A stretch of 64,000 bases of DNA from Parapedobacter koreensis (GTDB lineage: Bacteria > Bacteroidota > Bacteroidia > Sphingobacteriales > Sphingobacteriaceae), in assembly GCF_900109365.1 (NCBI RefSeq), contig NZ_FNZR01000008.1:62001-126000 (forward strand), given 5' to 3'. The position numbers and the translations under genes were made by a program. The notes below the pieces were generated by a model. The model was not told the origin of the DNA, searched no databases, and saw only the letters and a program-made list of their open reading frames with translations. Each line of letters begins with the position of its first letter. The stretch's first letter is position 1. Below are positions 22,600 through 64,000 of the stretch, piece after piece.

Positions 22600-22610
22600 A
22601 AGCAAAAGTC

Positions 22611-22627
22611 CTATTGCACAACAATAG
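22611..22627. promoter_or_regulatory. short inverted repeat before nagA
   Basis: CTATTG and CAATAG flank a 5-base loop, 11 bases upstream of the nagA ATG. It could be a minor operator or mRNA hairpin; nothing else supports it. Confidence 0.25.
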
Positions 22628-22638
22628 TTAAAATACTG

Positions 22639-23871: not shown

Positions 23872-23876
23872 ACGAA

Positions 23877-42561: not shown

Positions 42562-45084
42562 TTATAAATTATTGACTACTATCATCCTACTGGAACGGGC
42601 TGTCTTCTTGTGGAATGCCTTAAACCGGTAGATTCCTTTTTCCTTCAATGGCCCTTTGACTTCCTTATCTGTGATTGACGGAATACCTCCGTTGACAGTA
42701 TAATGTATCGTCAACGCTTCAGATTCCGTATTTGCGTGAATGTGGTTGTTGTCGATTTTGATGCCCGGCGCAGGTATGCGATAAAGAATCGCTTTCCAAT
42801 ACCGATCAAAACGGGGCAACTCATCGTGCCATAAAATAGCATTAAACCGGCTCCAGGCATCGTTGTATTGCGTTTCGAATGCTTCGTTCGGGGCCGTAGC
42901 CCATGCAGGCTGCGGAGCCCACGCCCGCTCGGCAAACGCAATCAGTTTTGGATACAGCATATAATCAAAATTGTCTTTATTGATGAGGGTCTCCGACCAC
43001 AGCGCACACTGCAATCCGTTGATGTGCTTTAGTCCTTCCGAATTCAGTCTTATCTTATCGCGCAGGGAGGCGGAATCGATGGGATGATCCATATCATCAC
43101 GCAAGAACGTACGGTAATAATTCTCCGGAACAAATCCGAATATTTTTTCAGGGCTGACATATCCACCCCAATACATGCCCGGTTCATAAAAACTTCTGGT
43201 CGATGCCAAATCAAGATACATGTGAGTCACATTTGACAATACGATGTCAAATCCTTGATTCGCCAGCCGATAAGCAAGATCCTCCGCCCCTGTGCCGTAT
43301 ACATTGTTCCACACATCCAGCAGGTATCCGTTTTTCCGGAGTGCAGGTACAATTTCCATTTTCTTACGCCCATTGACATCTATGCGTTTCATGCCGATTT
43401 CTTCCCATCCTTGCATCCGGATATCTTTCTTGGCCAGAATCCCGCCTACGCGGCCATAGAAATATTCCCAAAGATCGTCTGCGGTGTCAAATGAACGGTT
43501 GTCGGCCAGAAAACGTCGTACAGCTGCTGACCGTTCCCATACACCTGCGGGTACTTCGTCTCCGCCCATGTGGATAATCCGGAGCTCCGCTCCGGCATCC
43601 TGGTACATCAATGCTAATTCCGTTATTACCTTCTCGACAAAATGATAGCTGGACTCCAGTGCCGGATTGATGGCGTCGTCATTCCAGCCTTGTACGGTGC
43701 GGTATACCGACTGATCCCCTACATCGTTAAGCAGGTATTCCATTGCTTTGCTGGTATCCGAATTTAGGTATTTGCGGTATCGGTGCTCCATCGATTTGAT
43801 AGCAGCACGTGCGTGCCCCGGTGTTTCCAATTCTGGGATGACGGTGATAAAGCGGTCTTTTGCGTAGGTGAGGATATCGATGAAATCCTTCCGGGTATAA
43901 AACCCGCTGCCTCGCGTTGAGGCCGAATCCGGCCCCGATCCGTGCGACGGTGGGAGGTAATCTTGCTGTGCGGTGGTATGCCCCCGATATCCACCAAAAT
44001 CGGTGAGCTCCGGCAATCCAGGGATCGCCAGCCGCCATCCTTCATCGTCGTTGAAATGAAAGTGCAAGGTGTTGATTTTATAGGCCGCCATCATATCCAA
44101 CACTTCCAGCAGTTTTTCTTTCGGTAAATAATTGCGCGCAACATCCAGCATCACTGATCGATGCTTAAAGCGGGGTTTGTCATCCACTTCCAGGCCAGGC
44201 AGCACGCATTTACCATCACGATAATGATCCAGAATCAATCGCTTCAGTGTCTGTATGCCGTAAAACATTCCCGAAGCAGTACCCGCAGTGATTTCGATAC
44301 CGGTATTTTCGATTCGGAGCTGGTAGGCTTCTTCTTCCAGATTCCAGTACTTCAGCTTGATGCCACCCTTGGTTGGGTCGCTGATCACGTGAAGATTAAG
44401 ATTGGTATATTTCTTTATTTCATCAATCAAGTAGCTGGCTTGCCCCATGAATGGATTGTCTGCAATGATATAAAGACCGTCCGTAAGTGTATAGTATTGC
44501 TCATTGGATTTAATCGCCTTTGGAGAAGGTAAGAGCTGATCTTCCGGTTTGATTGGTATATTGGCTGCCAGCCGTTGGTTGCTTTCGTAAATTTCCTCAG
44601 CCAGCGCATTTTCAGGCAAAACGATATGGTCATAAAGCGGGTTTTCGTTGATGAACGGATAATATTGATCCGGTTTATCGTCATAAACCAAGTAGAAGCC
44701 GGTAGGAAAATCGGAGATATTCCGCAGCCGTGCTTGCCGGATGGGTATGGTGAGGCTATCCGCATCCTGCTGCAGGCTGAAATGGGCAGTAGGTTCTATG
44801 TAGTTTAAGTCTCCATTGACATGGACAATATTGAACTGGTCAGCATCCGTGCTGTCTACCTGGGGTTTTTTATATGAATTGAAATAGAGTTTCCAATTTT
44901 TCTTGTTTAAATCATGTTCCCGCGAAAGGTGGAAGCTGACATAACAAACCGGTACCAACTGTTGGCTGGCATCCGTGCGAATTTCTACGTTGTACGTCAA
45001 GCCGTGCTGTGCTCGTTCTTTTGTCGTACAGCCAAAAAAAATAACGGTAAAGATGAATAGGATAATCGGTGCGTTTGTTTTCAT
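42562..45084 (-). CDS. beta-N-acetylhexosaminidase lipoprotein, GH20
   Basis: This 840-residue enzyme releases terminal N-acetylhexosamine. It starts with a lipoprotein signal (MKTNAPIILFIFTVIFFGC, lipid Cys at 19). An N-terminal carbohydrate-binding/CHB-type beta domain (about 25-165) and a GH20 N-terminal domain (GIQTLKRLIL region) precede the catalytic barrel starting at HRSVMLDVARNYLP. The catalytic pair D509-E510 is in HMGGDEVPAGVWE. A C-terminal CHB_HEX_C-type domain (PAPGIKIDNNHI onward) ends the chain. I chose the ATG at 45084 because it gives a normal lipoprotein signal; an upstream in-frame ATG at 45129 adds 15 residues. It is divergent from susC, so it probably belongs to the same utilisation locus. 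Confidence 0.92.
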   Translation of the reverse strand: MKTNAPIILFIFTVIFFGCTTKERAQHGLTYNVEIRTDASQQLVPVCYVSFHLSREHDLNKKNWKLYFNSYKKPQVDSTDADQFNIVHVNGDLNYIEPTAHFSLQQDADSLTIPIRQARLRNISDFPTGFYLVYDDKPDQYYPFINENPLYDHIVLPENALAEEIYESNQRLAANIPIKPEDQLLPSPKAIKSNEQYYTLTDGLYIIADNPFMGQASYLIDEIKKYTNLNLHVISDPTKGGIKLKYWNLEEEAYQLRIENTGIEITAGTASGMFYGIQTLKRLILDHYRDGKCVLPGLEVDDKPRFKHRSVMLDVARNYLPKEKLLEVLDMMAAYKINTLHFHFNDDEGWRLAIPGLPELTDFGGYRGHTTAQQDYLPPSHGSGPDSASTRGSGFYTRKDFIDILTYAKDRFITVIPELETPGHARAAIKSMEHRYRKYLNSDTSKAMEYLLNDVGDQSVYRTVQGWNDDAINPALESSYHFVEKVITELALMYQDAGAELRIIHMGGDEVPAGVWERSAAVRRFLADNRSFDTADDLWEYFYGRVGGILAKKDIRMQGWEEIGMKRIDVNGRKKMEIVPALRKNGYLLDVWNNVYGTGAEDLAYRLANQGFDIVLSNVTHMYLDLASTRSFYEPGMYWGGYVSPEKIFGFVPENYYRTFLRDDMDHPIDSASLRDKIRLNSEGLKHINGLQCALWSETLINKDNFDYMLYPKLIAFAERAWAPQPAWATAPNEAFETQYNDAWSRFNAILWHDELPRFDRYWKAILYRIPAPGIKIDNNHIHANTESEALTIHYTVNGGIPSITDKEVKGPLKEKGIYRFKAFHKKTARSSRMIVVNNL

Positions 45085-45092
45085 ATTGGAGG

Positions 45093-45100
45093 CAAAGTTA
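45093..45100 (-). promoter_or_regulatory. candidate -7 element for the GH20 gene
   Basis: The minus strand reads TAACTTTG, matching TAnnTTTG, only 8 bases upstream of the preferred ATG. If used, the mRNA would have almost no leader. The alternative is that the longer upstream start is not used and this is a chance match. Confidence 0.35.
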
Positions 45101-45222
45101 ATTGACCGTTTTGAAAGCCTTTTTTCCATATTCCTGAAAAATTGGCCTGTAGTCCACCTTGGTTTTCGGATAAATGGACAAAAAATACGGACTATAGGAA
45201 TTTTACTTGAGACTTAGGTCGA

Positions 45223-45256
45223 TAAATTTGTACTTCATTGTTGGTATGGAACCAAC
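45223..45256 (+). promoter_or_regulatory. susC promoter candidate with a downstream inverted repeat
   Basis: TAAATTTG (45223-45230) matches the -7 consensus, with a TTTA at 45202-45205 in the -33 position (17-base gap). Ten bases on, GTTGGT (45240-45245) and ACCAAC (45251-45256) form an inverted repeat around ATGGA, close to the expected transcript start, suiting an operator or a 5' hairpin. The leader to the susC ATG is about 60 nt. Confidence 0.5.
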
Positions 45257-45299
45257 AAAATCCTAAATTCCAAATGTACTTAATGTAAATTGAACAACT

Positions 45300-48200
45300 A
45301 TGGTAAATTGTAAACCCAAGTTTATCCGATTGACAAGCCTACTATTGTTGCTATGGATGGGAAATAGCTTATTGGTAAGCGCCCAGACACAAATCAACAT
45401 TTCCGGCACTGTCATCGATGAAAACGGAACCTTGCTTAGTGACGTCAATGTAGGCGTAACAGGTGGGTCGACGCTAACCAAATCAACAGAAACGGGTACG
45501 TTCACGCTCGTGGTTCCGGCAAACAGTTCGCTGGTGTTTTCGCGGGTGGGCTATGCCCGGCAAACGTATCAAACCGGTGACGCCTCAGTCAACGCACTTA
45601 CCATCACGCTGCAAAGCGAACAAGAGACATTAGATGAAGTCGTGGTGGTGGGCTATGGTACGCGTGACAGGAGCCTTTTTGCGGGTGCTGCGGTTTCGTT
45701 AGACGCAGAAGATTTAAATAGGTCTTCCATCTCCGTGGCAAACATGCTTCAGGGAAGGGCCGCGGGTGTGCAGGTAAGCCAGAATAATGGTACACCAGGC
45801 GCTAGCTTATCTATCCGTATCCGGGGTACAAACTCGATTAACGCAGACAGTGAGCCGCTATATGTCATCGATGGCTTCCCGTCGTCGGAAGGCATCGGAA
45901 TGACGATAAAACCGGAAGATATCGAAAGTATTACCATCCTGAAAGACGCAGCTTCGACATCCATCTATGGTGCGCGTGGTGCAAACGGTGTGGTGTTGAT
46001 CACGACCAAAAAGGGTACCGATAAAAGAAGCAGTTTGAACATCAACAGCTCCGTCGGATACCAGCGTATCATTGATCGCTACAATTTGTTAGGTTCATAT
46101 GACTATGCATTGCGGCGTAACCGGATATCCGAACAAAACGGCGTAATACCGCCTTATTCGGAAGGTCGATTGGATTCATTGCAGGCAGGGATATTAGGTA
46201 CCGATTGGCAAAACGAAGTTTTTCAGGTTGGCCATGTCAATGACCATTCGCTCAATTTTATCGGTGGAACCGACAGAACCGGCGTATATACCTCTTTTGA
46301 TTACCTCAATCAAGAAGGAGTCGTCACCCATTCCAAGTACTCCCGGATTGGGGCGCGTATCAATGTGGACCATCGTGTCAGCGATCAGTTCACGCTTTCA
46401 GGCCGTGTATTTGGAAACTATGGGATACAAAACGATCTTCCATTGGCACCTTCAACCATCAACGGTTTTCTGAAGCAGGTGCTGCATGCCAATCCGGCAT
46501 CCACATTTGACTCGGGAGTATCCGCACGCCTCGATGCACAGAATCCATTACATTTTATAGAAGCGGAAGACCGGGAGAATACCAGCTACCGTACCAATGG
46601 GTATTTTTCCATGAAATATGAGCCCATCCACAACCTCTTTTTGCAGGCGGATTTCGGGGCCGACATCAATAAAACAGAACAATTTTATTTCGCACCTTCC
46701 ACTGTACCCAATGCATCGGCAACCAACGGAAGGGGTTCTATCATTTCTTTTGATTCCAAGGAACTTATTTTCAACCCTACAGCGCGCTATAACCGCACCT
46801 TTGCAAAACACAATATCGGTTTATTGGCTGGTTATAATTACCAGACCTATCTGTATTTTGAATACGGTACTACTGCTACAAACTTCAGCAGCGACAACCT
46901 GGGGTACAACAACCTGGGTACGGCCCAGAATTTTAGCAGCTACTCAGCCCGTAACCGTACCAATCGTGCGAGCTGGTTTGGCCGTGTCGACTATGACTAC
47001 GATACGCGTTACAGTCTGACGGCGACCTATCGCATCGATGGTTCTTCGGTGTTTGGCAGGTCGAATAAGTTGGGCTATTTTCCATCGGTCGCTGCCGCGT
47101 GGAACGTGAAACATGAAAGCTTTGCAACCGATCTAACGTGGTTGTCGCAAGCCAAGCTACGGGCCAGCTACGGCCTCACCGGCAACGACCGGATCAGTCC
47201 GGGTATCTCCTTGGCTACCTATGCGAGCAACAATTCCACCCGGTATACGGAAGATGGCCTCACCTCGGTCAACGGGATAGCGGTAGTTAGGCTATCCAAT
47301 CCCGATCTGAAATGGGAAAGCACCAAGGCGTTGGATTTGGGTGTCGAACTCGGGTTTGTCAATGACCGGATTGTTTTGGTGGCCGACTATTACGATAAGT
47401 ATACGGATAATCTTTTGTTGGATAGAAACATATCGCCTTCTACGGGATTTATATTCCGGACGGGCAATGCCGGAGCGGTGTCCAATAAAGGGTGGGAATT
47501 TTCACTGCAAACCGTCAATGTGCGGAATGAGCATATTGAATGGAGCACATCCTTCAATTATTCCAATAACCGCAATCGCGTCCGCGAGTTGGGCAGCAAT
47601 GATGCCGACATTTATGTTGGGTCGGTAAAACCTGACGGTGCTGCTAATTTCGAAGATCCCTTCATTATCCGGGTAGGGGAGCCGATCGGATCCATAAATG
47701 GATACCTTTATGATGGCATTCTGCTACCTGATGATCCAGCATTGACGACTACACACCCCAATGCCGAGGTCGGCGATCCGAAATATGTGGATGTCAACGG
47801 TGATGGAATACTCAACACGGAAGACCGGGTGATACTGGGAACGGGTGTGCCCACTTCCTTTTTTGGCATGACTAATAGTTTGCGTTACAAAGGGTTTGAC
47901 CTGACCGTGGTACTCCAGGGCCAGGCCGGAGGTAAGCTGGTCAATGTGCAAAACCTGGACATGATGAATCCACTGACCACTGGAAATGTACTAGCTGAAA
48001 CGGAAACGGATACCTGGACGCCGGATAATCCAGGTGGTACCCTACCCCAACGGGGTTTTTATGGTACGAGCCACGGTGGATGGGTGAATTCCCGGTTTGT
48101 AGAAAGTTCTGATTTCTTGCGCTTGAAAAACGTAACATTGGCTTATCAAATTCCATCCAAGCTGCTATCCAAAATCCGTGTTTCGCAATTACAGGTCTAT

Positions 48201-48368
48201 GCCAATGCGCAAAACCTCCATACATGGACTTCCTATACGGGCTTGGATCCGGAAATTGGCAATTTGGCAACCAATGACCAACAAAATAGAAATGTGGGAA
48301 GAGGCCTTGATTTTAATGCCTATCCGCTTGCCAAAATGTATATCTTTGGTTTGAGGTTGACTTTTTAA
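45300..48368 (+). CDS. SusC/RagA-type TonB-dependent outer-membrane transporter
   Basis: This 1022-residue transporter moves oligosaccharides or other ligands captured by SusD across the outer membrane using TonB energy. The signal peptide ends near ...LLVSAQ (about residue 29). A carboxypeptidase-regulatory-like domain follows (INISGTVIDENGTLLSDVNV), then the plug, entered by TLDEVVVVGYGTRDRSLFAGA and containing SIRIRGTNSINADSEPLYVIDGFP and ASTSIYGARGANGVVLITTKKG, and finally a 22-strand barrel ending in IFGLRLTF. The length is normal for SusC. It is the first gene of an operon continuing through susD into sulfur-transfer genes. The ligand cannot be read from the sequence. Confidence 0.95.
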   Translation: MVNCKPKFIRLTSLLLLLWMGNSLLVSAQTQINISGTVIDENGTLLSDVNVGVTGGSTLTKSTETGTFTLVVPANSSLVFSRVGYARQTYQTGDASVNALTITLQSEQETLDEVVVVGYGTRDRSLFAGAAVSLDAEDLNRSSISVANMLQGRAAGVQVSQNNGTPGASLSIRIRGTNSINADSEPLYVIDGFPSSEGIGMTIKPEDIESITILKDAASTSIYGARGANGVVLITTKKGTDKRSSLNINSSVGYQRIIDRYNLLGSYDYALRRNRISEQNGVIPPYSEGRLDSLQAGILGTDWQNEVFQVGHVNDHSLNFIGGTDRTGVYTSFDYLNQEGVVTHSKYSRIGARINVDHRVSDQFTLSGRVFGNYGIQNDLPLAPSTINGFLKQVLHANPASTFDSGVSARLDAQNPLHFIEAEDRENTSYRTNGYFSMKYEPIHNLFLQADFGADINKTEQFYFAPSTVPNASATNGRGSIISFDSKELIFNPTARYNRTFAKHNIGLLAGYNYQTYLYFEYGTTATNFSSDNLGYNNLGTAQNFSSYSARNRTNRASWFGRVDYDYDTRYSLTATYRIDGSSVFGRSNKLGYFPSVAAAWNVKHESFATDLTWLSQAKLRASYGLTGNDRISPGISLATYASNNSTRYTEDGLTSVNGIAVVRLSNPDLKWESTKALDLGVELGFVNDRIVLVADYYDKYTDNLLLDRNISPSTGFIFRTGNAGAVSNKGWEFSLQTVNVRNEHIEWSTSFNYSNNRNRVRELGSNDADIYVGSVKPDGAANFEDPFIIRVGEPIGSINGYLYDGILLPDDPALTTTHPNAEVGDPKYVDVNGDGILNTEDRVILGTGVPTSFFGMTNSLRYKGFDLTVVLQGQAGGKLVNVQNLDMMNPLTTGNVLAETETDTWTPDNPGGTLPQRGFYGTSHGGWVNSRFVESSDFLRLKNVTLAYQIPSKLLSKIRVSQLQVYANAQNLHTWTSYTGLDPEIGNLATNDQQNRNVGRGLDFNAYPLAKMYIFGLRLTF

Positions 48369-48388
48369 CTCCTATAAATTTAACAGTA

Positions 48389-49963
48389 ATGAAACACTAC
48401 AAAAAACCAACCTTATATGCACTCTTGCTCTGCTCACTCATGCCGGTGGCCTGTGAGAACGGCTTGCAAGAGGAATCCTATTCTGTTTTTGACGAGACGA
48501 CATTGACCAAGCCTGAAAACGGCCTGCAAGGTGTGCGCGGGGTGTACTCCGCACTTCGGGATAATGGGGGAAATGGGTACTATGCCGGTTACTTGCACCA
48601 ATTGACTGAATATCCGTCCGATATCGTGACCACAAAACCGGATAGCCGGCAAGGTATCCAATTGGATCAGCTGACCTACGATGCCAGCAATTCCATCATC
48701 AATGATGTATGGACAAGTATTTTCAGGTTGATCTCCAGAGCCAACGAATCGGAATACCTCATTGGAAAAATCGACTACGTAGGCAATGGCGAATCGGACG
48801 AGGTCAAAATGCAGCACCTGGCGGAAGTACGGTTTTTACGGGCGCTGGCTTATTATGATGCAACATCCCTATGGGGCGACGTGCCGCTGAACCTCAAATC
48901 GTCAGCGGAGTTTGTTGAAGCCGATGAGAATCCACCATTGGTAGCACAGTCCACCATTGAAGAACAGATTATCATCGATCTGGAATTTGCCGAACAATAC
49001 CTCCCGTCAAGTTATCCGGTGGAACAGAATGGTCGGGCCACGCAAGGCGCAGCGCAAGGGCTATTGGCCAGGTTGTACATGAGACAGGGGGAGTGGCAGA
49101 AAGCAGCCGATAAATGTGCAACGATTATCACGGGCGGCATTTACGACCTACGCGCTTCCAGCGAAGGTGGCGTGGTTGCCTTGTTTGATAACATGAACCG
49201 ATCAGACAATGAGTTTATCTTTGTGATGAAATCTTCCAGCGAGCCGGGATCTTATGGTATTTTGTCCAATAGCTTCGGTATCCAATCGGTGCCATGGGAT
49301 TATAATCGGGGGTGGGGCAATTTCCCCATACACCGGGAGTTCTATGCAGAGTTCAGCCCGCAGGATCAGCGTCGGCAACTCTTGCTGGGTACCTATAAAG
49401 CATTGTATGGGCAGATCGTCACACTGCCGAAAGAATTTGGCGGTGAAGGTGGTAGCCTGCCCGATACGATACAAGCCCAATATACCTACGGCCTTAAATA
49501 TCCCCATACAAACAATTACAACTATGCGGGATACAACAATGTCAGCATCATCCGCTACTCGGATATCCTGCTGATGAGGGCAGAAGCACTTAACGAGTTA
49601 AATGGCCCCAATAACGAGTCTATCTCCTTGATCAACGAGATCCGGGAACGAAGCAATGCCTCATCGGTAGATGTGTCGAATTTTTCTTCCACGGAAGCTT
49701 TGCGGGATTTTATTTTTGAAGAACGTGGGCTGGAATTATTTATGGAAGGACGCCGACGGGACGATTTGATCCGCTGGGGGCGCAGCGCGACAAACGGTGC
49801 GGATCCCTTGTTGAAGTTCAAGGAGCGTGTCAGGCCGCTGTTACGGGATCAGAATACCTATTCCGATGCAGTTAATTATGCGTTGTTTCCCTATCCCATT
49901 CAGGAGATACAGGCAAATACGTCACTGAATGTCGGCATTAACCAAGGCAGGGTAAGACAATAA
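48389..49963 (+). CDS. SusD/RagB-type surface nutrient-binding lipoprotein
   Basis: This 524-residue lipoprotein forms the lid of the SusC channel. The lipid cysteine is C22 in LCSLMPVACENG. The helical SusD fold with TPR-like pairs is evident: RFLRALAYYDATSLWGDVPL, QGAAQGLLARLYMRQGEWQKAADKC, the RYSDILLMRAEALNEL helix and the C-terminal FEERGLELFMEGRRRDDLIRWG, all standard SusD segments. It lies 20 bp after susC and 4 bp before the sulfotransferase-like gene, so it is in the same operon as those genes. Confidence 0.94.
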   Translation: MKHYKKPTLYALLLCSLMPVACENGLQEESYSVFDETTLTKPENGLQGVRGVYSALRDNGGNGYYAGYLHQLTEYPSDIVTTKPDSRQGIQLDQLTYDASNSIINDVWTSIFRLISRANESEYLIGKIDYVGNGESDEVKMQHLAEVRFLRALAYYDATSLWGDVPLNLKSSAEFVEADENPPLVAQSTIEEQIIIDLEFAEQYLPSSYPVEQNGRATQGAAQGLLARLYMRQGEWQKAADKCATIITGGIYDLRASSEGGVVALFDNMNRSDNEFIFVMKSSSEPGSYGILSNSFGIQSVPWDYNRGWGNFPIHREFYAEFSPQDQRRQLLLGTYKALYGQIVTLPKEFGGEGGSLPDTIQAQYTYGLKYPHTNNYNYAGYNNVSIIRYSDILLMRAEALNELNGPNNESISLINEIRERSNASSVDVSNFSSTEALRDFIFEERGLELFMEGRRRDDLIRWGRSATNGADPLLKFKERVRPLLRDQNTYSDAVNYALFPYPIQEIQANTSLNVGINQGRVRQ

Positions 49964-49967
49964 TGGA

Positions 49968-51368
49968 ATGAAACAAATCCCTGCCGTTGTATATATTATT
50001 GTTATGGTGCTGATTGCTGTCGGCACCATAATCCTTTACAAGGCATTGCAGCCATTGAATATCGAAAAGATAGCGTTGCACTACCTACCTGAAAATCGGT
50101 TGCGTGTACGGGTTGACGTCTCGACAAACAAGTCATCTGCCGTGCAGGTTAAGTATTGGCTCGATGGCGGCAGGGATACCTTATGGTCGGATCGCTATCC
50201 CGATGGCGCTGAGCAAACCATCATTTTGTACAACCTATTGCCTGATCGCCAGTATGCTTATCAGGTGAAAGCGCAGCGGGGATCCCATACAGACTGGAGC
50301 AAGGTATATGCCATTAAGACCAAGTCTATCTACCATACCACGCCGTATTTTACATTGGACAGTATTGCCGACTCGCTAAGGGAAGACATGCAATCCCGGC
50401 ATTTCCTCACACAAATACTTACCGAACCCGGTGCCGCGGTTATCATCAATGGGCTTGGCGACATGGTGTGGTATGAGCCCTTTGCGAAAGGTGTAAAGGT
50501 GTCTTCGTGGACGCCAGACCGTACTGTACTATGCATTGTGGGATCGGAAGATATACCGTCATCAGGTGGGGACGAAATCGTCGAAGTAAACCTAAAGGGT
50601 GAATACTTGAAGCATTTCAAGGTAGGAGAGGGCGATATGGACAAGCTGGTGCATCATGAGGTACGTAAAGATACCGAAGGTAATATTTACGCCATTACCT
50701 TTGACCGCAAAGTGTTTGACCTGAGCGCCGTGGGTGGCGGCCACAGCGATACAGTCAAGGCAGATGGCATTGTCGTATTCAACCCACAGGGTAAGAAAAT
50801 CTGGGAATGGTCGGTACTGGATCATCTTGATGTATTGCATTACCCTACGATATTGAAAGACAAAGACGACCTTGTACATGCCAATGCGTTATATGACGAT
50901 GGAAAGGGGTATTTCCTGCTGTCATTCCGGGATTTGAACCAGGTTTGGAAAATCAATAAGACGACCGGGGAAGTGGTGTGGAAATTCGGCCAGCAAGGGG
51001 ATTTCCCCATGCAGGAAGCAGATTTTTTCTTCGCCCAGCATTATACCCACATGAACCGCAATGGCGAGCTCATGTTGTTGGATAATGGGATAAAGCGCAA
51101 ACAATCAAGAACGTTGTCTTTTAAGCTGAATGAATCAACCAAGCAATATCGCCGTATGCTGGAAATCAACTATCCACCTGCATTCTTCTCGTCAGTAAAA
51201 GGCAATTCGGCCCTTCTCGGCGAAGATAAGGTGTTGACTTGTTTGACCGACCCACGCTTGTTCTTGCTTTCCGACTATGCAGGCAACCTCCTTTGGAAAG
51301 TCAGTGTAGGCGGGGATCCCTATCGCATTGAAGAAGTGCCCTTACTAACAAGCATGAAGGATGAATAG
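49968..51368 (+). CDS. membrane-anchored aryl-sulfate sulfotransferase (ASST family)
   Basis: This 466-residue protein has one N-terminal membrane span (VVYIIVMVLIAVGTIILY, residues 7-24), a small beta domain (about 33-118, fibronectin-like) and a C-terminal beta-propeller of the arylsulfotransferase family. ASST enzymes pass sulfate from one aryl sulfate to another acceptor through a histidine intermediate, without PAPS. Active-site counterparts are visible: H229/H230 (LVHHEV), H304 and N306 in LVHANAL (the H-x-N of the E. coli-type enzyme), R321 in SFRDLNQVW, and H358 in FAQHYTHM, the candidate sulfate-carrying histidine. It would face the periplasm. It starts 4 bp after susD and its stop overlaps the next start by 8 bases. 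Related members may act on other groups, so the donor and acceptor are unknown. Confidence 0.82.
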   Translation: MKQIPAVVYIIVMVLIAVGTIILYKALQPLNIEKIALHYLPENRLRVRVDVSTNKSSAVQVKYWLDGGRDTLWSDRYPDGAEQTIILYNLLPDRQYAYQVKAQRGSHTDWSKVYAIKTKSIYHTTPYFTLDSIADSLREDMQSRHFLTQILTEPGAAVIINGLGDMVWYEPFAKGVKVSSWTPDRTVLCIVGSEDIPSSGGDEIVEVNLKGEYLKHFKVGEGDMDKLVHHEVRKDTEGNIYAITFDRKVFDLSAVGGGHSDTVKADGIVVFNPQGKKIWEWSVLDHLDVLHYPTILKDKDDLVHANALYDDGKGYFLLSFRDLNQVWKINKTTGEVVWKFGQQGDFPMQEADFFFAQHYTHMNRNGELMLLDNGIKRKQSRTLSFKLNESTKQYRRMLEINYPPAFFSSVKGNSALLGEDKVLTCLTDPRLFLLSDYAGNLLWKVSVGGDPYRIEEVPLLTSMKDE

Positions 51369-52569
51369 CCATTTGATGACTCATAATCGCGCACAGGCAG
51401 CCACCTATTCACTCCTGCGACTTTCGTGGGGTATTTTTAAAGTGGGTGCCCTGGCTTTCGGGGGCCATGCCGCCTTGGTCGTCATGGTAGAGCGCTATTT
51501 GGTTGTTCAGAAAAAGTTGTTCAGTAGCGAAGATATCTTGGATGCCATGAGTTTGGCGACACTTTTGCCGGGGCCAATGGCCGTCAATGTAGTGTGTTAT
51601 TTAGGCTACCGGCTAAACGGCTGGTTGGGTGCAGGTGTTTTTTTTGTTGCGATTGCGGCACCACCCACCATCTTAATGGTCATCATCGCCGCTTGGTACT
51701 ATCAAGCAGGGGGGCAATTCGGTACGGGTGGCTCCAATACATTTGTGTTGCTTACCGTCGCAGCTGTGATCCTGTCTACTGGACTCACGTTGTATAAAAA
51801 ACAGATTCATAGGGATGCCGCCGGGCTGGCGCTATGCTTATTGGCGTTTGTAAGCACATTGGTTTTCAGCGGTTTTGTCGTATCCATCGCGCTAATTCTG
51901 GCAGGAGCAATCATTGGTTATTCCGTTTATCGAACGTCATCAGACGCGCACGTTGCCGAACAATACATCGTCCCCAAATTAGGTGTAAACCTGCTTATTA
52001 TCCTGTTGCTGGCTGTCGTCTTCCTTGGGTATTTATTTGGTGGCTATCGGTTTGCTCCCCACGGACCCTGGCAAATCGTTTCTGTTTTCAGCGGCATGAG
52101 CCTCACGCTTTTTGGCGGGGGTATGGTCATTATACCGTATATGCAAGCGATTTTGGTCGACGAACTGAGCTGGTTGCAAACAAAAGAGTATGTAGATGCC
52201 ATTGCATTTGGGCAGATTACACCAGGCCCCATACTCGTGAGTGTCACGTTTATTGGTTACAAAGTGGCTGGTATCCTTGGTGCGGTATTGGCTACATTGG
52301 CGATTTTTCTCCCTTCGGCTAGCCTTATGATCATTCTTGCCCAATATATCAATTACCAGCATGGCCGTATCAAAGCAGTATTCAGGGGTATCCGGCCCGT
52401 AGTGATCGGGATGATCATGGCAGCAGGCATACAGCTATTGATGGCAACGCCAGGTTTTTCATTACCTGCCGTTTTATTTGGATTGATTGGGTTTGCTTGG
52501 CTATCCTTCGGGAGGCTGAATCCGATCTATCTTATTTTAATAGGATTTTTTATAGATTTTATTTTTTGA
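51361..52569 (+). CDS. two-domain CHR-family (chromate/sulfate-type) transporter
   Basis: This 402-residue inner-membrane protein is built of two homologous CHR halves, each with an F-x-x-G-xx-x-F-GG motif: FKVGALAFGGHAALV at the start and FSGMSLTLFGGGMVIIP in the second half. The matching proline motifs are LATLLPGPMAVNV and FGQITPGPILVSV. Bidomain CHR proteins are best known as chromate exporters. Chromate is a sulfate analogue, and here the neighbours handle sulfate, so an oxyanion such as sulfate is a reasonable alternative substrate. The start overlaps the ASST gene by 8 bases; a second ATG is at 51376. The stop overlaps the sulfotransferase ATG by one base (TGATG). Confidence 0.85.
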   Translation: MNSHLMTHNRAQAATYSLLRLSWGIFKVGALAFGGHAALVVMVERYLVVQKKLFSSEDILDAMSLATLLPGPMAVNVVCYLGYRLNGWLGAGVFFVAIAAPPTILMVIIAAWYYQAGGQFGTGGSNTFVLLTVAAVILSTGLTLYKKQIHRDAAGLALCLLAFVSTLVFSGFVVSIALILAGAIIGYSVYRTSSDAHVAEQYIVPKLGVNLLIILLLAVVFLGYLFGGYRFAPHGPWQIVSVFSGMSLTLFGGGMVIIPYMQAILVDELSWLQTKEYVDAIAFGQITPGPILVSVTFIGYKVAGILGAVLATLAIFLPSASLMIILAQYINYQHGRIKAVFRGIRPVVIGMIMAAGIQLLMATPGFSLPAVLFGLIGFAWLSFGRLNPIYLILIGFFIDFIF

Positions 52570-53579
52570 TGATGAAGATACAAGGCATACAAATTATCGG
52601 TACCCAACGGTCGGGCTCTAATTTACTACGGGTGATTCTCAACCAGTCCGACCAGTTGGTTTCTCCTCATCCAGCCCACCTATTGACCAATTTCGCTCCG
52701 TTATTGCCTTATTACCATCCGCTTGATGTACTTTCCTACAAGCGGCTCGTAGATGACGCAGTGGATTATATTCACGTCAACCCTGTGGACTGGGGTATCC
52801 GTTTGGACAAAGAGGAAATCTATCGGATGGCAACACAATTCAGCCTTTTTGAATTGAATAAAAACATTTATGAATTTCTTGCCCGCCAATGCGGGGCTTC
52901 CCATTGGTGTTGCAAAAGCATGGGCAACATGTACTTCTCAGACGAATTAGAAAAAGTATCGGACGGCCTTAAGTATATTTATCTTTATCGTGATGGGCGG
53001 GACGTGGCGTTATCGTTTCAGAAGGCTATTGTCGGGGAGAAACATGCTTATCATATTGCCAAGCAGTGGCATAATGACCAGCAAACTTGCCTGAAACTCC
53101 GCGATCGGGTACCCCCTGAACGCTTCTTCATGCTCAATTATGAACAGCTTATTACACATCCCGAACAAACGATTAGACAATTGTGTTTATTCTTGGGTAT
53201 CGCATTCCAGGGTACGATGCTGGACTACTATACCTCAGACGAGTCCAAACGAACCGCTGAAGGAGGCGATATGTGGACAAACCTGACGAAGCCCGTCATG
53301 CAAGACAACTTCAACAAATTCCTCCGGGAAATGCCGGCCGAAGATATCCGTGTTTTCGAATCCGTGGCAGCTGATAGTTTGGTGTCGTTGGGTTATGAAC
53401 CGATCACGGCATATGAAGATCTCAAACAGTTTACCAAAGAAGAAATAGCGATCTTTAGTGAAAGAAATGAGCAACTGAAACGTACATTTCAAGCCAAAGG
53501 TGACGATGTGAAAAAGAGACTACCGCAGCTTGATCTGATTAAACGCATCAAAGAAGCAGCGGTGGGTGTATATGAATGA
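52569..53579 (+). CDS. PAPS-dependent sulfotransferase
   Basis: This 336-residue cytoplasmic enzyme transfers the sulfo group of 3'-phosphoadenylyl sulfate. The 5'-phosphosulfate loop is at the very start (IIGTQRSGSNLLRVIL, residues 9-24), and the 3'-phosphate-binding segment is YLYRDGRDVALSFQ near residues 138-151. Between them, WCCKSMGNM fits the core fold, and FMLNYEQLITHPEQTIRQLCLFLGI is the standard C-terminal helix region. I start it at the ATG 52569; the frame stays open upstream into the CHR gene but without family similarity. The acceptor (glycan, lipid, sterol or other small molecule) is unknown. The stop overlaps the cysQ start by 8 bases, which fits removal of the PAP by-product. 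Confidence 0.88.
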   Translation: MMKIQGIQIIGTQRSGSNLLRVILNQSDQLVSPHPAHLLTNFAPLLPYYHPLDVLSYKRLVDDAVDYIHVNPVDWGIRLDKEEIYRMATQFSLFELNKNIYEFLARQCGASHWCCKSMGNMYFSDELEKVSDGLKYIYLYRDGRDVALSFQKAIVGEKHAYHIAKQWHNDQQTCLKLRDRVPPERFFMLNYEQLITHPEQTIRQLCLFLGIAFQGTMLDYYTSDESKRTAEGGDMWTNLTKPVMQDNFNKFLREMPAEDIRVFESVAADSLVSLGYEPITAYEDLKQFTKEEIAIFSERNEQLKRTFQAKGDDVKKRLPQLDLIKRIKEAAVGVYE

Positions 53580-54381
53580 AATAAGCAACGGACAAACGAT
53601 GTATATTCCTTTTCTGCCGGACGATATCCCTGCCTTGATAGCCATCGCCAAGGAAGCCGGAAAAGCAATTCTAAAGGTGTACCATACGGATATGGACGAA
53701 TGGCATATCCTCCAAAAAAGCGATGCTTCGCCCCTCACTGTGGCAGACACCTTATCCCATCGGATAATCAGCGAGGGTTTGACGAACCTTTTTCCGGCAA
53801 TTCCGGTATTATCGGAAGAAGGGAGGGACATCCCGTATGCACAGCGGAAAGACTGGGAATGTTATTGGTGTGTAGACCCGCTTGATGGGACGAAAGAATT
53901 TATTTCCAGAAATGGGGAGTTTACCGTCAATATTGCCTTGATCATTGGGAACGCTCCGGTTTTTGGCCTTATTTACGTGCCCGTGACCGATACGGTGTAC
54001 TACGGCTTAAACGATCACGGCAGTTTCCAAATCGTGGGCAGCGGTGAAGCCCGTAACATACAGGCACGGACCAGTGAACCCCCCGTGGCTGTGGGTAGTA
54101 AATCCCATAAGACAGCAGCGGAAAGTACATTTCTGGCTTCACGGGGGATTCAGCAGGTAGTCAGCATCGGAAGCTCCCTGAAATTTTGCTTGATAGCCGA
54201 GGGTAAGGCGCAGGTATATTACCGGCATGGACCCACCATGGAGTGGGATACTGCTGCGGGACATGCCATCGCTGTCAACAGTGGAGCGCGGATGACCAAT
54301 GCGGACGGAAGCGCATTTACCTACAACAAAGTCAATTTGGTAAACGGTAGTTTTATTTGTAGCGTCCTGACTGGGGAATAG
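53572..54381 (+). CDS. cysQ: 3'(2'),5'-bisphosphate nucleotidase CysQ
   Basis: This 269-residue inositol-monophosphatase-fold enzyme hydrolyses PAP (and PAPS) to AMP or APS, relieving product inhibition of sulfotransferases. Metal-binding motifs are SEEGRD, WCVDPLDGTKEFISRNGEF and EWDTAAGHAIAVNSGA. The ATG at 53572 overlaps the sulfotransferase stop (ATGAATGA); a GTG two codons before and an ATG at 53599 are alternatives. Overlap with the sulfotransferase gene indicates that PAP recycling is built into the operon. It ends 2 bases from the convergent cysC stop. Confidence 0.92.
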   Translation: MNEISNGQTMYIPFLPDDIPALIAIAKEAGKAILKVYHTDMDEWHILQKSDASPLTVADTLSHRIISEGLTNLFPAIPVLSEEGRDIPYAQRKDWECYWCVDPLDGTKEFISRNGEFTVNIALIIGNAPVFGLIYVPVTDTVYYGLNDHGSFQIVGSGEARNIQARTSEPPVAVGSKSHKTAAESTFLASRGIQQVVSIGSSLKFCLIAEGKAQVYYRHGPTMEWDTAAGHAIAVNSGARMTNADGSAFTYNKVNLVNGSFICSVLTGE

Positions 54382-54383
54382 AC

Positions 54384-54899
54384 CTATCCGGTCAATTCCC
54401 GGAGCAGCATATCCACGCATTCCTCCGGTGTATGGTGCTGTGTGTTGATGGATAGTACAGCTGCGTTTGGTAGTTCAAAAGCGGCGGAAATCCCCGTAAA
54501 ATCAGCAATGGCATTGTTTCTAGCTTGCCTGTAGAGCCCCTTTACATCCCGGCGCTCACATTCGGATGTTGGGCAATCCAGGTAGACAAGCAGGAGTTCA
54601 TCCCCCACAATCTGGGATATGAGTTGCCGGTGGTCATTAAGCGGCGTGATAAAACTGCCGATACAGACGATGTCGCGTTTCACCAGCAAGCTGGCAATAT
54701 GGCTTGCCCGCCGGATGTTCTCCGCACGGTCTGCATTCGAAAACCCCAAGTCTGCATTCAATCCTGCCCTTAAATCATCCCCATCCAACAGGACGACGTT
54801 GAGGCCAAGGTTTTCCAGCTTTTCAGCAAGCAGGTGGGATAAGGTGGTCTTGCCAGCTCCTGACAATCCAAAGAGCCATATCACTCTTTTTTTAATCAT
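54384..54899 (-). CDS. cysC: adenylylsulfate kinase
   Basis: This 171-residue enzyme phosphorylates APS to PAPS, the donor for the neighbouring sulfotransferase. The P-loop is GLSGAGKTT (11-19). Further family motifs are LLDGDDLRAGLNADLGFSNADR, VYLDCPTSECERRDVKGLYRQAR and DFTGISAAFELP. The usual GSFISPYRxDR loop is altered to GSFITPLNDHR. The length is slightly shorter than E. coli CysC. The sulfate adenylyltransferase subunits CysD/CysN are not in the window. Its ATG overlaps the 3' end of the HTCS gene by 8 bases on the same strand, so its expression is probably tied to that sensor. Confidence 0.92.
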   Translation of the reverse strand: MIKKRVIWLFGLSGAGKTTLSHLLAEKLENLGLNVVLLDGDDLRAGLNADLGFSNADRAENIRRASHIASLLVKRDIVCIGSFITPLNDHRQLISQIVGDELLLVYLDCPTSECERRDVKGLYRQARNNAIADFTGISAAFELPNAAVLSINTQHHTPEECVDMLLRELTG

Positions 54900-57800
54900 A
54901 TGGTTTGGTGTTTTTCTGATACGTCTTGGGCGATACGTTCATCTGTTTTGAAAATGACTTTGAAAAATAAGATACGGAATTAAATCCTACCGTATAGGCA
55001 ATTTGGCTGATATTCAATTTGCCTTCGTGAAGGAGTTTTTCCGCTTCGGATAGCCGGATGGATTTGATGTAGTCGTGTACTCCCTTGCCCGTAATTGCCT
55101 TGAATTTTGCATACAGGACGGAGCGGCTCATTCCAAATTGGCGGCATAGGCTTTTATAATCGAGGTCATATTCGGCCATGTGTACCACGACAAAATCCCG
55201 CACATCAGCCATGAATGCTTTATCCAACTCCGACAATGCCAGGGCATCTTCGGCGTTATCCGGCGTGCCCATCGAATCTTTTTGAATCGGCTTGGGTTTG
55301 TTTAAAAAATTCCTGATGACGGCAAGTAGCAAATCGGCACGTATTGGTTTCGTCAGGTAGCTGTCTGCCCCTGCTTTATATCCCCGCAACTGGCTCGCTT
55401 CTTGATCTTCGCCCGTCAGCAGCAAAACAGGGATGTGGGACGTTGTGATATCGCTTTTGAGCGATTTGGTGAGGGATATGCCGTCTATGCCCGGCATGAT
55501 GAGGTCAGTGATGATCAAATCAGGCTGGGTCTTTCTGGCGGTATCCAACCCTTCCTGCCCATCGCAGGCTTCATCCACCTCGAAATAGTTTTCCAACGTA
55601 TGCTTGAGCAACGAACGTATGCTCTGGTTATCATCTACGACCAATATACGTACATTTGCAAATTGCTGTAACGATTCAACGGTTATCGGCGTCGGGCTGG
55701 CAAGATCAAGTTGCTGGCCATTGGTGCTGGCCTGCGCATCGGGTATTGAAATTGTGAATACGGATCCGTGTCCTTTGGTGCTTTCAATGGCCAATTCGCC
55801 GTTATGGGCTTTGATAAACTCCCGGCATATCTGAAATCCCAAACCTGTACCTGTCTCGCCATTGGTACCTATAGTTGAGTCGGATTGGCCATGAAAGATT
55901 TTTGTTATTTGGGCAGCTTCCATACCTACGCCGTTGTCAGCTATCGTAATGCGTATATATCCATGCTCAATGGTACAGGCAAAGGTCACCCGCCCTCCTT
56001 CGTTTGTATATTTGATGGAATTGCTCAAGATGTTCCTGATGATGGCATTCATCATCTGATAGTCTGCAAACAGCTGGATACCGGGGTCGAGCAGTACATC
56101 GCACGTGATGCGTTTGGCCTGCAACTGCAAGGCAAAGAGGTAGCGATTCTTTTGGATCAGATCATAGAGATTAAATGATTTTGGTGAAAAATGCAGTTTA
56201 TTTGTTTTTGTTTTTCCCCATTCCAGCAGGTTGACGACCAAGTTGCTCAATGAATTGGATGACACGCTCAGGTCTTCGATATACGTTGTGATCTCTTTTC
56301 TGGACAAATGGGTTAGGTTTTCTTTCAGCAAATCCGTGAGACCGGTGAGCGCCGACAATGGGTTTTTTAAATCATGCACCAAGATGGATAAAAATTTATC
56401 CTTCATCTGATTGCTTGTTTCCAGCTCGTTGATTACGGATTCCAGTTTGTTGTTTTGCTCAATGATTTGCCGTTGTTGCTGGCTGATTTCATCATTTTTT
56501 AAAGCAAGCGTAGTATTTTGATGGCGTATCTCATTATTGGTCGCCAGTAGTTCGTTGTTGGCATTGTGCAACAACACGGTTTTTTCGGCGATTTTTTGTT
56601 CCAATAGGGTGTTCTGGCGGCGGATCGTCCTCAACCGGTAGTAGTAAATGGATACCATGATGCACAGTACCAGCAATCCGATAGCTGCTTTAAACCACCA
56701 AGTCAGCCAGAAAGGAGGGGCAATCAGTATCCGGATGCTGGCCAGGTTGTCTGACCAATTGCCGCTGTTGTCTGTACCACGGACAAACAGCTTATACGTG
56801 CCGGGCTGCAGGTTATTGAAAGAAAGTACATTTTTATTGCCAAGGGGCAGCCACTTTTGATCCAAGCCGTCAAGCTTATAGGCGTAGGTTTTCATGGCCG
56901 GATCGATGTAATTAAGCGATGCGAACTCAAGCGAAAAAACGTTTTGTGTATAATCCAGTGTGACGGTCTCCGTATAGTTGATGTCCTGCGCCAACGGGGT
57001 CGCATGCTCCGGCGTGCTGATAGGCACATCGATATTGCCCAATTGGAAATTTGTAAATACGAGCGAAGGCGTATAGCTCCTGGGTTTGATGCCCGATTTG
57101 TTAATCATGTTCAATCCGTTGACCCCACCGAAGTAGAGGTTGCCTTCCCGGTCTACCAGTTTCGCCCGCCTGAATTCGTCTCCTTGCAGGCCATTCGATG
57201 GCATGTAATTGACCATGGCTTGGGTGCGATCGTCGATTTTTGTAATTCCTTTGTTGGTCGCTGCCCAAATGTGGCCATAATTATCCATCGCTACGGCATT
57301 GACGATATCACTTTGGATCGCAGAATTGGATGTAAAATAGACACTATTCTGTCTATGCACGTGGTTCAGCTTGTTGAGGCCATATGCGGTTCCGATCCAA
57401 ATGTTCCCATGGCGATCTTCCGTGAAGCTCTTAATGGTATTGCTAGAAAGCGGGCTTCCTGCCATATCCGAATCTGTGGTGATAAAATGAAAAGACCCGC
57501 TTGCCGGCGTGTATAGTCCTACGCCGCTGCCTTCCGTGCCTATCCAAATCGTCCCGTCGGATGATTCAAAAAGCGAAAGTATATGGTTGCTGTTGATCCG
57601 GTTGCCTTCTTCCTTGATACCGTAATGCTGAAATCCGGCAGTAGACGGGTTATACAGGGTCAGCCCTCCGCCGTATGTCCCAATCCAGATGCGGCCATTC
57701 CTGTCTTTTAGCAAACTGTTGATGTTATCGCTTTTTAAGGCTGGAGTATTGGCTGTATTTATTTGTTTCAAACTGTTCTTCTCCGGATGATAGCGATAGA

Positions 57801-59076
57801 TCCCCTTCCCCCAGGTACCTATCCAAAGTTCTCCGCTATTATCTTCTGTGATCGAAACAACATAGCATCCGACACCCAGTTGCTGGAAGGGAATACGTGT
57901 TCCGTTGGCAAAAGTGTTGTTTGTTTTGTCGAACTTGTTGAGCCCTCCGCCATCCGTGCCCACCCAGATGTTATTACGCGAATCCTGGTAGAGGCAATTG
58001 ATGATGTTGTTGTTCAGGCTGCTGGGGCTGTCTGTGTGCCTGAAATGTAAAATATTGATTTCGTCAATATTGACCATCGAAATACCTGCGCCGGATGTGC
58101 CTATCCACATGTTGCCTTTTCTATCCTGGCGTATGCAATTGATTGAATTGCTGGCGATACTTCTGGCATCCTGTTTATCTGTGCGGTAAATTTTACAACT
58201 CCGCTGGCGCAGATTCAGGATATACAACCCTTCATTCTCCGTGCCGAACCAGACTTGGCCGTCGATATCCTCACCGATGCACAAGACTTTTGTCCGGTCC
58301 ACGAGTTTACCGGCAAAATTGAGGTGTTCGTTTGTAAAGCTATCGCTTATCGGATTATAATAATAAATTCCGGATGTCGCTGAACTTGCCCAAATCCGTC
58401 CTGACTTATCAATATGGATATCCGTAATCGGGCCATCATCGGAAATAGCGTACTTACGGAGTATCTCGCCATGTCGGTTCGTCATGGCAATGCCTTGCTG
58501 GTAGGTGCCTATCCACAGGTTTCCCTGCTGATCCTGCTCGGCGCAGGTAACCGGAAAACTCACCCCTGTACCCGTAATCTCCCTGCGTTGATGGTTATAA
58601 ATCAGCAAGCCGGATGATCGACTGCAAAGCAAAACGTCACCGTCCCTTGTGGTCGAAAAAGAAATGACATTGGACAGATCGGTGTTTTTGTCGGCTAAAT
58701 AACTATTCGCTCCCTTGATCTGCCCGGTGACCGGATCTAAGATATTGGGGTATTCGGAATCCGAAGTGGTGATCCAAAGCTGCTTATCCTTATCCTGGAT
58801 GATTGCTTTGATGTCATTGGAATGAAGGGTGTATTCGGCATCGGGGGTTTTTCTGATGATGTGGAACTTGTAGCTATCGTATTTGTTTATTCCATCCTGT
58901 GTTCCGAACCACATAAAACCCAGATCGTCTTCAAAGATGGTTTGTATGGTATTCTGAGAAAGGCCGTCGGACGTTTTCAGTTGTCTGAACTTCAGGTAGT
59001 CCCATTGTGCCCTGACAAGACAGCAATTGCTTAGGCAGGCAAAAATAAGGCAACAACGGAACAACACACTATTCAT
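54892..59076 (-). CDS. hybrid two-component system sensor/regulator (HTCS)
   Basis: This 1394-residue single-chain regulator senses periplasmic glycans or related ligands and activates nearby operons. After a signal sequence come two seven-bladed Reg_prop propellers (about 30-690, repeats such as LWIGTYQQGIA and IWIGTYGGGL) and a Y_Y_Y domain (about 700-785). A membrane span (WWFKAAIGLLVLCIMVSIYYY, about 787-810) and a coiled coil follow. The kinase has its phospho-histidine in LVHDLKNPLS (about 903), and the ATP-binding domain contains DNGVGMEA and GLGFQICREF. The receiver holds its aspartate in LIITDLIMPG (about 1190), and the AraC-type helix-turn-helix (about 1290-1390) contains ISQIAYTVGFNSVSYFSKSF. 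It shares 8 bases with cysC downstream. Confidence 0.94.
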   Translation of the reverse strand: MNSVLFRCCLIFACLSNCCLVRAQWDYLKFRQLKTSDGLSQNTIQTIFEDDLGFMWFGTQDGINKYDSYKFHIIRKTPDAEYTLHSNDIKAIIQDKDKQLWITTSDSEYPNILDPVTGQIKGANSYLADKNTDLSNVISFSTTRDGDVLLCSRSSGLLIYNHQRREITGTGVSFPVTCAEQDQQGNLWIGTYQQGIAMTNRHGEILRKYAISDDGPITDIHIDKSGRIWASSATSGIYYYNPISDSFTNEHLNFAGKLVDRTKVLCIGEDIDGQVWFGTENEGLYILNLRQRSCKIYRTDKQDARSIASNSINCIRQDRKGNMWIGTSGAGISMVNIDEINILHFRHTDSPSSLNNNIINCLYQDSRNNIWVGTDGGGLNKFDKTNNTFANGTRIPFQQLGVGCYVVSITEDNSGELWIGTWGKGIYRYHPEKNSLKQINTANTPALKSDNINSLLKDRNGRIWIGTYGGGLTLYNPSTAGFQHYGIKEEGNRINSNHILSLFESSDGTIWIGTEGSGVGLYTPASGSFHFITTDSDMAGSPLSSNTIKSFTEDRHGNIWIGTAYGLNKLNHVHRQNSVYFTSNSAIQSDIVNAVAMDNYGHIWAATNKGITKIDDRTQAMVNYMPSNGLQGDEFRRAKLVDREGNLYFGGVNGLNMINKSGIKPRSYTPSLVFTNFQLGNIDVPISTPEHATPLAQDINYTETVTLDYTQNVFSLEFASLNYIDPAMKTYAYKLDGLDQKWLPLGNKNVLSFNNLQPGTYKLFVRGTDNSGNWSDNLASIRILIAPPFWLTWWFKAAIGLLVLCIMVSIYYYRLRTIRRQNTLLEQKIAEKTVLLHNANNELLATNNEIRHQNTTLALKNDEISQQQRQIIEQNNKLESVINELETSNQMKDKFLSILVHDLKNPLSALTGLTDLLKENLTHLSRKEITTYIEDLSVSSNSLSNLVVNLLEWGKTKTNKLHFSPKSFNLYDLIQKNRYLFALQLQAKRITCDVLLDPGIQLFADYQMMNAIIRNILSNSIKYTNEGGRVTFACTIEHGYIRITIADNGVGMEAAQITKIFHGQSDSTIGTNGETGTGLGFQICREFIKAHNGELAIESTKGHGSVFTISIPDAQASTNGQQLDLASPTPITVESLQQFANVRILVVDDNQSIRSLLKHTLENYFEVDEACDGQEGLDTARKTQPDLIITDLIMPGIDGISLTKSLKSDITTSHIPVLLLTGEDQEASQLRGYKAGADSYLTKPIRADLLLAVIRNFLNKPKPIQKDSMGTPDNAEDALALSELDKAFMADVRDFVVVHMAEYDLDYKSLCRQFGMSRSVLYAKFKAITGKGVHDYIKSIRLSEAEKLLHEGKLNISQIAYTVGFNSVSYFSKSFSKQMNVSPKTYQKNTKPYD

Positions 59077-63884: not shown

Positions 63885-64000
63885 GTTAAAATGTAAATGC
63901 AATTATTCGGTAACTATCTTGGAGTTTGGTAATGAAAGCGCGAACTATTCACGTTGTAGCATGATAGCACGATTTCTGATATCAGTGACTCAATTTGATG

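Follow-up and report, generated by a model that had tools for sequence, protein, structure and literature searches.

What does a bacterium gain by placing two kinds of sulfotransferase, one dependent on 3′-phosphoadenosine 5′-phosphosulfate (PAPS) and one independent of it, directly behind the genes of a Sus-type importer? The question is raised by a 64,000-nucleotide stretch of the Parapedobacter koreensis genome (contig NZ_FNZR01000008.1, positions 62,001 to 126,000; hereafter the window), in which a single tight plus-strand run at 45300-54381 encodes susC, susD, an arylsulfate sulfotransferase (ASST), a CHR-family transporter, a PAPS-dependent sulfotransferase (ST), and cysQ. The adenosine 5′-phosphosulfate (APS) kinase gene cysC lies convergent to this run, and the genome as a whole comprises 5.5 Mb in 27 contigs. 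The best single explanation that we can offer, to which we give slightly less than an even chance, is that the operon encodes a PAPS-fed two-step sulfo-relay coupled to the importer. CysC would make PAPS in the cytoplasm from APS produced elsewhere in the genome, ST would draw on PAPS to sulfate a carrier, a small hydroxyl-bearing and probably phenolic molecule, and CysQ would clear the by-product 3′-phosphoadenosine 5′-phosphate (PAP). Once sulfated, the carrier would be exported from the cytoplasm by the CHR protein in the inner membrane. On the far side, a membrane-anchored, periplasm-facing ASST would take the sulfuryl group on histidine H358 and hand it to a hydroxyl of a SusCD-imported compound, most likely an oligosaccharide containing beta-linked N-acetylhexosamine (HexNAc). 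A hybrid two-component sensor/regulator (HTCS) encoded beside the operon may sense the imported material and turn the set on.

The run comprises, in order, susC (45300-48368; TonB-dependent outer membrane transporter; TIGR04056, 823 bits), susD (48389-49963; surface lipoprotein partner of SusC; PF07980, 112.9 bits), the PAPS-independent ASST gene (49968-51368; PF05935, 82.1 bits against a cut-off of 24.2), the gene for the CHR-family inner membrane anion transporter (51361-52569; PF02417, 215.8 bits in two stretches), the ST gene (52569-53579, ATG start; PF13469 passed at 100.7 bits), and the PAP phosphatase gene cysQ (53572-54381, ATG start; TIGR01331, 280.6 bits, above the cut-off). The successive junctions measure +20, +4, −8, −1, and −8 bp. 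The initial annotation, made from the sequence alone, had described six closely joined plus-strand genes, and it was right in both positions and families, with gaps of 20 and 4 bp and three overlaps. It had also placed cysC (54384-54899, minus strand; TIGR00455, 174.3 bits, above the cut-off) convergent to cysQ at a spacing of 2 bp, as the coordinates bear out (54381 versus 54384).

Conservation of the locus was examined in 301 genomes of the family, nine genomes of the genus, and a sample of 296 genomes from the phylum, as well as in a wider set of loci from a pattern-based scan of a species-genome collection with the ST alignment, from which the best 80 of 219 relatives were taken. Open reading frames (ORFs) in relatives were called by a greedy longest-ORF method and labeled by BLAST against the window proteins or by custom-built profiles, with Pfam run on representatives only; orders were assigned from organism names. 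Two series of loci (L004 to L043 and L044 to L123) share genomes and were tallied separately. Across the family, ST was found in 26 of the 301 genomes and ASST in 51, with ASST present in all 26 ST genomes versus 25 of the remaining 275 (Fisher P = 1.1e-23, uncorrected for kinship). CHR stood beside ST at every family ST locus (26/26; 25 fetched loci plus the window). The window order was kept in 13 of these 26 loci (for L012, susC falls past the contig end), CHR-ST lay upstream of susC-susD-ASST in the same stretch in 11, some with intervening genes, and the two halves were separated in the genome in two (L016 and L018). Within the genus, ASST, ST, CHR, and cysC co-occurred in the identical four of nine genomes.

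The wider set, gathered by ST sequence alone, gave a similar arrangement. Counts there use 79 of the 80 loci, as no ST ORF was called in L117. CHR was adjacent to ST in 69 of the 79 (L099, where a weak ST paralogue was retained instead of the matched ST, is counted as not adjacent), and the fetched stretch held a strong ASST at 49 loci and a weak one at three. Consecutive ASST-CHR-ST genes were present in 38 loci and the full susC-susD-ASST-CHR-ST run in 36; both ASST-CHR-ST junctions were at most 40 bp in 36 of the 38, with starts taken from the longest ORF. The run was found in Sphingobacteriales, Chitinophagales, Cytophagales (Dyadobacter), Flavobacteriales (Formosa and Lutibacter), and Bacteroidales (Parabacteroides and Phocaeicola oris). 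ST itself is rare across the phylum (3/296 sampled genomes, the third match being weak). Gene order in relatives had been set beforehand as a check on whether the genes belong together, and its recurrence in five Bacteroidota orders means that the unit is not a local one. Chance adjacency is rejected on the basis of the co-occurrence in family genomes and this repeated order. The earlier view that the genes form one unit is upheld by the tight junctions, the co-occurrence, and the shared order in relatives; we regard gene content and order as solid, and at the level of sequence they are demonstrated together with co-inheritance.

The supply of PAPS follows the same distribution. The window cysC is the sole PF01583 match in its genome, and an APS kinase was present in all four cluster-bearing genus genomes and in none of the other five (a 21-bit match over 43 of 152 positions in G068 was not taken as CysC). 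Proteins of the CysD/CysH type (PF01507) occurred in all nine, including a neighboring pair read as CysD and CysH, so that assimilation there seems independent of cysC. Because cysC follows the cluster (4/9) while the CysD/CysH-type genes do not (9/9), PAPS in the cluster-bearing genus genomes appears to be made for sulfation. In the family, all 26 ST genomes carried cysC, within 18 kb of ST in 25 of them, compared to 61 of the 275 other genomes. The assignment of the APS kinase to the cluster, as first annotated, therefore holds for both genus and family, and we consider the tie solid. The ST motifs TQRSGSN and R141-D-G-R144, with S149, were invariant in 45 aligned sequences, and we take the two motifs to be nucleotide-binding loops; a structure search matched the ST fold to TPST2, TPST1, and CurM. 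In one relative (L082:9962-11827), ST and CysQ are fused in a single ORF of 621 residues. In engineered Escherichia coli, the addition of CysQ to CysDNC strongly raised sulfation, and PAP is described as inhibitory (PMC6731281). The earlier claim that the equipment serves sulfation rather than desulfation is supported. Separately, in an uncultured Bacteroidetes bin (L103:7335-10999), an ST gene lies near a gene for a PhyH-type dioxygenase, with a divergent weak ASST (PF05935, 49 bits).

The second sulfotransferase has an informative closest relative. By phmmer, the PDB protein nearest to the window ASST was Cpz4 (E = 6.5e-10), the caprazamycin enzyme of Streptomyces. A profile search gave E = 1e-26 for Cpz4 versus 3.6e-6 for EcAST, the AssT of E. 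coli CFT073. Foldseek likewise returned Cpz4 (E = 9.1e-15, TM score 0.61, 19 percent identity; next other match, 9.6e-8), and EcAST was not among the 50 matches listed. The kinship to Cpz4 is solid. The active-site residues listed for EcAST include His252, His356, Asn358, Arg374, Thr501, and the nucleophile His436 (PMC13426309). His252, His356, Asn358, Arg374, and His436 align with H229, H304, N306, R321, and H358 of the window ASST, whose numbering was counted by hand from the alignment; no counterpart of Thr501 could be assigned. The active-site His, Asn, Arg, and His positions of Cpz4 align as well. Among 73 distinct strong ASSTs, the His252, Asn358, and His436 positions were invariant, and that of His356 was conserved in 70. 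The predicted structure (mean pLDDT, the model's own per-residue confidence, 92.5) begins with an N-terminal helix at residues 4 to 27, followed by strands that would fit a beta-sandwich and propeller. We infer that this helix is a membrane anchor. By simple rules, 84 of the 88 strong ASSTs in the loci had a hydrophobic N-terminal stretch, and 30 had a lipobox.

The two sulfotransferases would have to be joined across the inner membrane, and the CHR protein is the candidate for this step. It shows two PF02417 halves and passes TIGR00937, the chromate efflux transporter model (183 bits against a cut-off of 171.7), while scoring 81 and 89 bits against the 250 bits of the ChrA and ChrB equivalogs, models of about 180 positions that fit half of the protein. 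In a tree of 101 CHR proteins, the 80 ST-adjacent members and two from other ST loci (L099 and L117, which carried the label "other") formed one clade with a support of 100, and 19 others fell outside it. The tree was built by a quick method with midpoint rooting, gave long-branch warnings, and collapsed identical sequences; its comparison proteins came from one bacterial family, hand-picked from listed matches (20 fetched, with L139, of 311 amino acids, removed by a length filter). The ST-adjacent members of the clade come from Bacteroidota, Cyanobacteriota, Pseudomonadota, and Nitrospirota, and the clade spans cyanobacterial and proteobacterial loci in which no ASST or SusCD was seen in the stretch. 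At an Armatimonadetes locus (L121:4441-8116), ASST, a TauE/SafE protein, and ST follow one another on one strand with gaps of 31 and 9 bp, the TauE/SafE protein replacing CHR. Given this replacement and the ST-linked clade, we read CHR as serving ST, most simply by exporting the ST product to the ASST side. No CHR was found in the five cluster-free genus genomes, and with the ST-linked clade this makes a bystander role for CHR unlikely. A bolder claim, doubtful but possible in our judgment, is that the ST-linked clade consists of organosulfate exporters feeding a Cpz4-like periplasmic ASST that sulfates glycans during SusCD import, tagging or trapping them before breakdown. Two further observations concern this family. 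Four Moorena contigs (L110, L111, L115, and L118) have ST and CHR in the opposite order, ST coming first, and their fetched stretches showed neither ASST nor SusCD. A cluster-bearing genus genome has a second CHR gene (G057:C12:162759-163796) with a stop codon inside the match of one half.

On the acceptor side, three neighboring genes that the initial annotation did not include bear on the identity of the imported material. The HTCS gene (54892-59076, minus strand; Reg_prop, Y_Y_Y, HisKA, HATPase_c, Response_reg, and HTH_18 domains) overlaps cysC, on the same strand, by 8 bp. Upstream of it is a gene for a protein resembling glycoside hydrolase family 16 (GH16-like; 59132-59986), which completes a minus-strand set with HTCS and cysC. 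Divergent from susC lies a GH20 beta-N-acetylhexosaminidase gene (42562-45129, minus strand; PF00728, 291.8 bits), so that GH20 and the GH16-like gene stand on either side of the operon. GH20 keeps its place in L004, L005, and L006. The GH16-like protein had no Pfam match by itself; its E-x-D-x-E motif, invariant in nine aligned homologues, is one that we take to be that of GH16. In the stretches of 80 relatives, counting anything within the fetched stretch, GH123 occurred in 24, GH16 in 12, GH20 in seven, and GH16-like genes in seven, and at least one of these four was present in 31 of the 38 ASST-CHR-ST loci. The HTCS, the GH16-like gene, and the GH20, GH123, and GH16 genes of relatives point to a glycan locus, and we infer that the substrate of the unit is an imported compound. 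GH20 and GH123 enzymes both act on beta-HexNAc. Since, in addition, several characterized arylsulfate sulfotransferases accept N-acetylglucosamine (PMC13426309), a HexNAc glycan is our leading guess for the acceptor. The 170-bp plus-strand region upstream of susC (45130-45299), aligned across the four cluster-bearing genus genomes, shares a TAnATTTG element preceded, at about 20 to 50 bp, by a conserved block; by comparison with the promoter consensus, the element may be promoter-like. In Formosa algae (L092), the genes downstream of ST encode GH20, a major facilitator superfamily (MFS) transporter, and a protein paired by BLAST with the glucosamine-6-phosphate isomerase-like gene of the window. 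The window has its own MFS transporter and glucosamine-6-phosphate isomerase-like genes at 21073-24638, with similar proteins encoded after ST in Formosa (L092) and Lutibacter (L102).

Four known systems resemble parts of this unit. The nearest is the caprazamycin pathway of Streptomyces, where a PAPS-dependent sulfotransferase and an ASST also occur together: the phenolic sulfate esters formed by Cpz8 serve as donors for Cpz4 (PMC4257720, PMC6731281), and Cpz4 prefers sugar hydroxyls (PMC13426309). We propose that the window unit may work by analogy with this two-step sulfation. It differs in that the portions of these three papers available to us mention no SusCD, CHR, cysC, or cysQ for the Cpz8/Cpz4 pathway. 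The triketide carrier of caprazamycin, moreover, comes from a type III polyketide synthase (PKS); a carrier gene was looked for, no clear one was found in the window genome, and the unit is for that reason not classed as caprazamycin-type. EcAST shares PF05935 and five of the six listed active-site residues, and the predicted strand layout of the window ASST would fit the beta-sandwich and propeller of EcAST and other characterized enzymes. EcAST is, however, more distant than Cpz4, and its own operon carries DsbL/DsbI (PMC13426309). The cholesterol sulfation cluster BT_0411-BT_0416 of Bacteroides thetaiotaomicron likewise brings together genes for PAPS synthesis, for a transporter, and for a sulfotransferase, but its description, in the portion available, names no ASST, SusCD, or CysQ (PMC9417993). 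With an ASST and SusCD inside its run, the window cluster falls outside that type, and the distinction drawn in the initial annotation agrees with the content described there. Finally, a susC-susD pair, a nearby regulator, and a glycoside hydrolase make the locus a Sus-like polysaccharide utilization locus, sharing SusC, SusD, HTCS, GH20, and GH16-like genes with that class; here, sulfate transfer genes rather than hydrolases lie directly behind susCD. The locus had been called an undescribed module. This stands insofar as no published description of the gene set was found in open-licence PMC full text (most subscription papers lie outside it), whereas the pairing of PAPS-dependent and PAPS-free enzymes has a precedent in Cpz8/Cpz4.

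Several findings weigh against the relay. No carrier-making gene was found among the cluster genes. The type III PKS family gave partial matches of 23 to 31 bits in all nine genus genomes, cluster or not, exceeding the cut-off in three and falling below it in the window genome; as a carrier source it is not supported, the partial matches being irrespective of the cluster. CHR is common in the family (228/301 genomes), and its presence alone is therefore little informative at that level. In the wider set, 27 of the 79 ST loci had no ASST in the fetched stretch, and cysQ and cysC were each present in only 36. In the family, cysC also occurs in 61 genomes that lack this ST; an additional cysC and an additional CHR are present in G057, and a second, partial cysC match in G093. 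The relatives of SusC and SusD in the PDB (the chain nearest to SusC being the SusC homolog 8aa4, E = 1.2e-131) reveal no specific cargo. Only 29 of the 73 distinct strong ASSTs keep Arg at the Arg374 position, the others having Tyr (24), Pro (12), Phe (five), or Ala (three), and the position is altered even in ST-adjacent ASSTs of Parabacteroides and of most Dyadobacter loci. Because this position varies, a single mechanism may not suit all ASSTs, and uniform chemistry across all relatives is not supported. susC-susD-ASST loci without ST also exist, several carrying cytochrome c and GH123; in the 15 that were fetched, the Arg374 position was changed in 12, and the other three had a gap at the His356 position. 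One such locus (L032:4590-18163; L033 to L037 are alike) has SoxA/TsdA-type cytochrome c and GH123 downstream of susC-susD-ASST, with intervening genes in some. The Arg374 position of ASSTs from loci of this type is Tyr or Phe, and these enzymes may accordingly have another chemistry.

The two sulfations might instead run in parallel, with ST acting on a cytoplasmic product of its own, CHR importing sulfate for PAPS, and ASST separately exchanging sulfate among SusCD-imported aryl compounds. CHR-family members are known as chromate/sulfate transporters, the window protein passes a model named for chromate efflux, and Moorena and proteobacterial stretches combine ST-CHR with no ASST there. Sulfate uptake was limiting for sulfation in engineered E. 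coli, where extra uptake raised it (PMC6731281); import of sulfate by CHR is for this reason a real alternative, and the main one, to export of a sulfated carrier. In the B. thetaiotaomicron cluster, too, the PAPS genes lie next to BT_0412, which is predicted to import sulfate (PMC9417993). A CHR clade that tracks one ST family across phyla nevertheless exceeds the needs of generic sulfate supply, and 38 of the 79 loci place CHR, with short junctions, between the two sulfotransferase genes, a position that TauE takes once. We consider parallel sulfations unlikely, though deserving of real weight.

Two other explanations are harder to reconcile with the gene set. If the product were a secreted sulfated surface polysaccharide, lipid, or signal, returned or exchanged by SusCD, the operon would be a biosynthetic unit rather than a nutrient locus. 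The similarity of the ST fold to tyrosylprotein sulfotransferases and CurM would suit this, as would some ST relatives (L103, L104, and L123) whose fetched stretches showed no Sus gene. The combination of SusCD, HTCS, and glycoside hydrolases is nonetheless typical of uptake loci, and no glycosyltransferase surfaced in the Pfam-scanned representatives, which is not a systematic test; we think this explanation improbable. Less probable still, and in our view very unlikely, is a salvage route in which ASST transfers sulfate to a carrier from aryl sulfates or sulfated glycans that have been imported, CHR brings this in, and ST works backwards to turn PAP into PAPS for assimilation, with no sulfatase needed. 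Phenol sulfotransferases can operate in reverse, SusCD is an importer, and the operon lacks a sulfatase, with three PF00884 matches in the window genome. Against this, CysC, which makes PAPS, and CysQ, which destroys PAP, run in the opposite direction, cysC is present in all 26 ST genomes, and the other three cluster-bearing genus genomes have 60, 28, and 9 sulfatase matches.

For most bacterial ASSTs, neither the natural acceptor nor the physiological role is known (PMC13426309). Here a donor-making enzyme, a transporter, an ASST, and an uptake system are encoded together in an operon that distant Bacteroidota, Parabacteroides among them, have retained, so that donor, route, and acceptor are each testable by single gene deletion and the natural role of a periplasmic ASST becomes accessible to experiment. 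The locus also suggests what a distinct CHR subfamily may do and provides an ASST related to Cpz4, an enzyme acting on sugar hydroxyls. Were CHR an organosulfate exporter and glycans sulfated on import, the transporter function would be new, as would the step added to glycan uptake. The relay would then extend over five Bacteroidota orders, its ST-CHR half being found as well in contigs from cyanobacteria, proteobacteria, and Nitrospirae.

Elsewhere in the window, a minus-strand ORF of 2,344 amino acids occupies 26482-33516. Another minus-strand ORF, of 791 amino acids (61527-63902), has only a borderline Pfam match, to Rcc01698_C (27.7 bits against a cut-off of 27).

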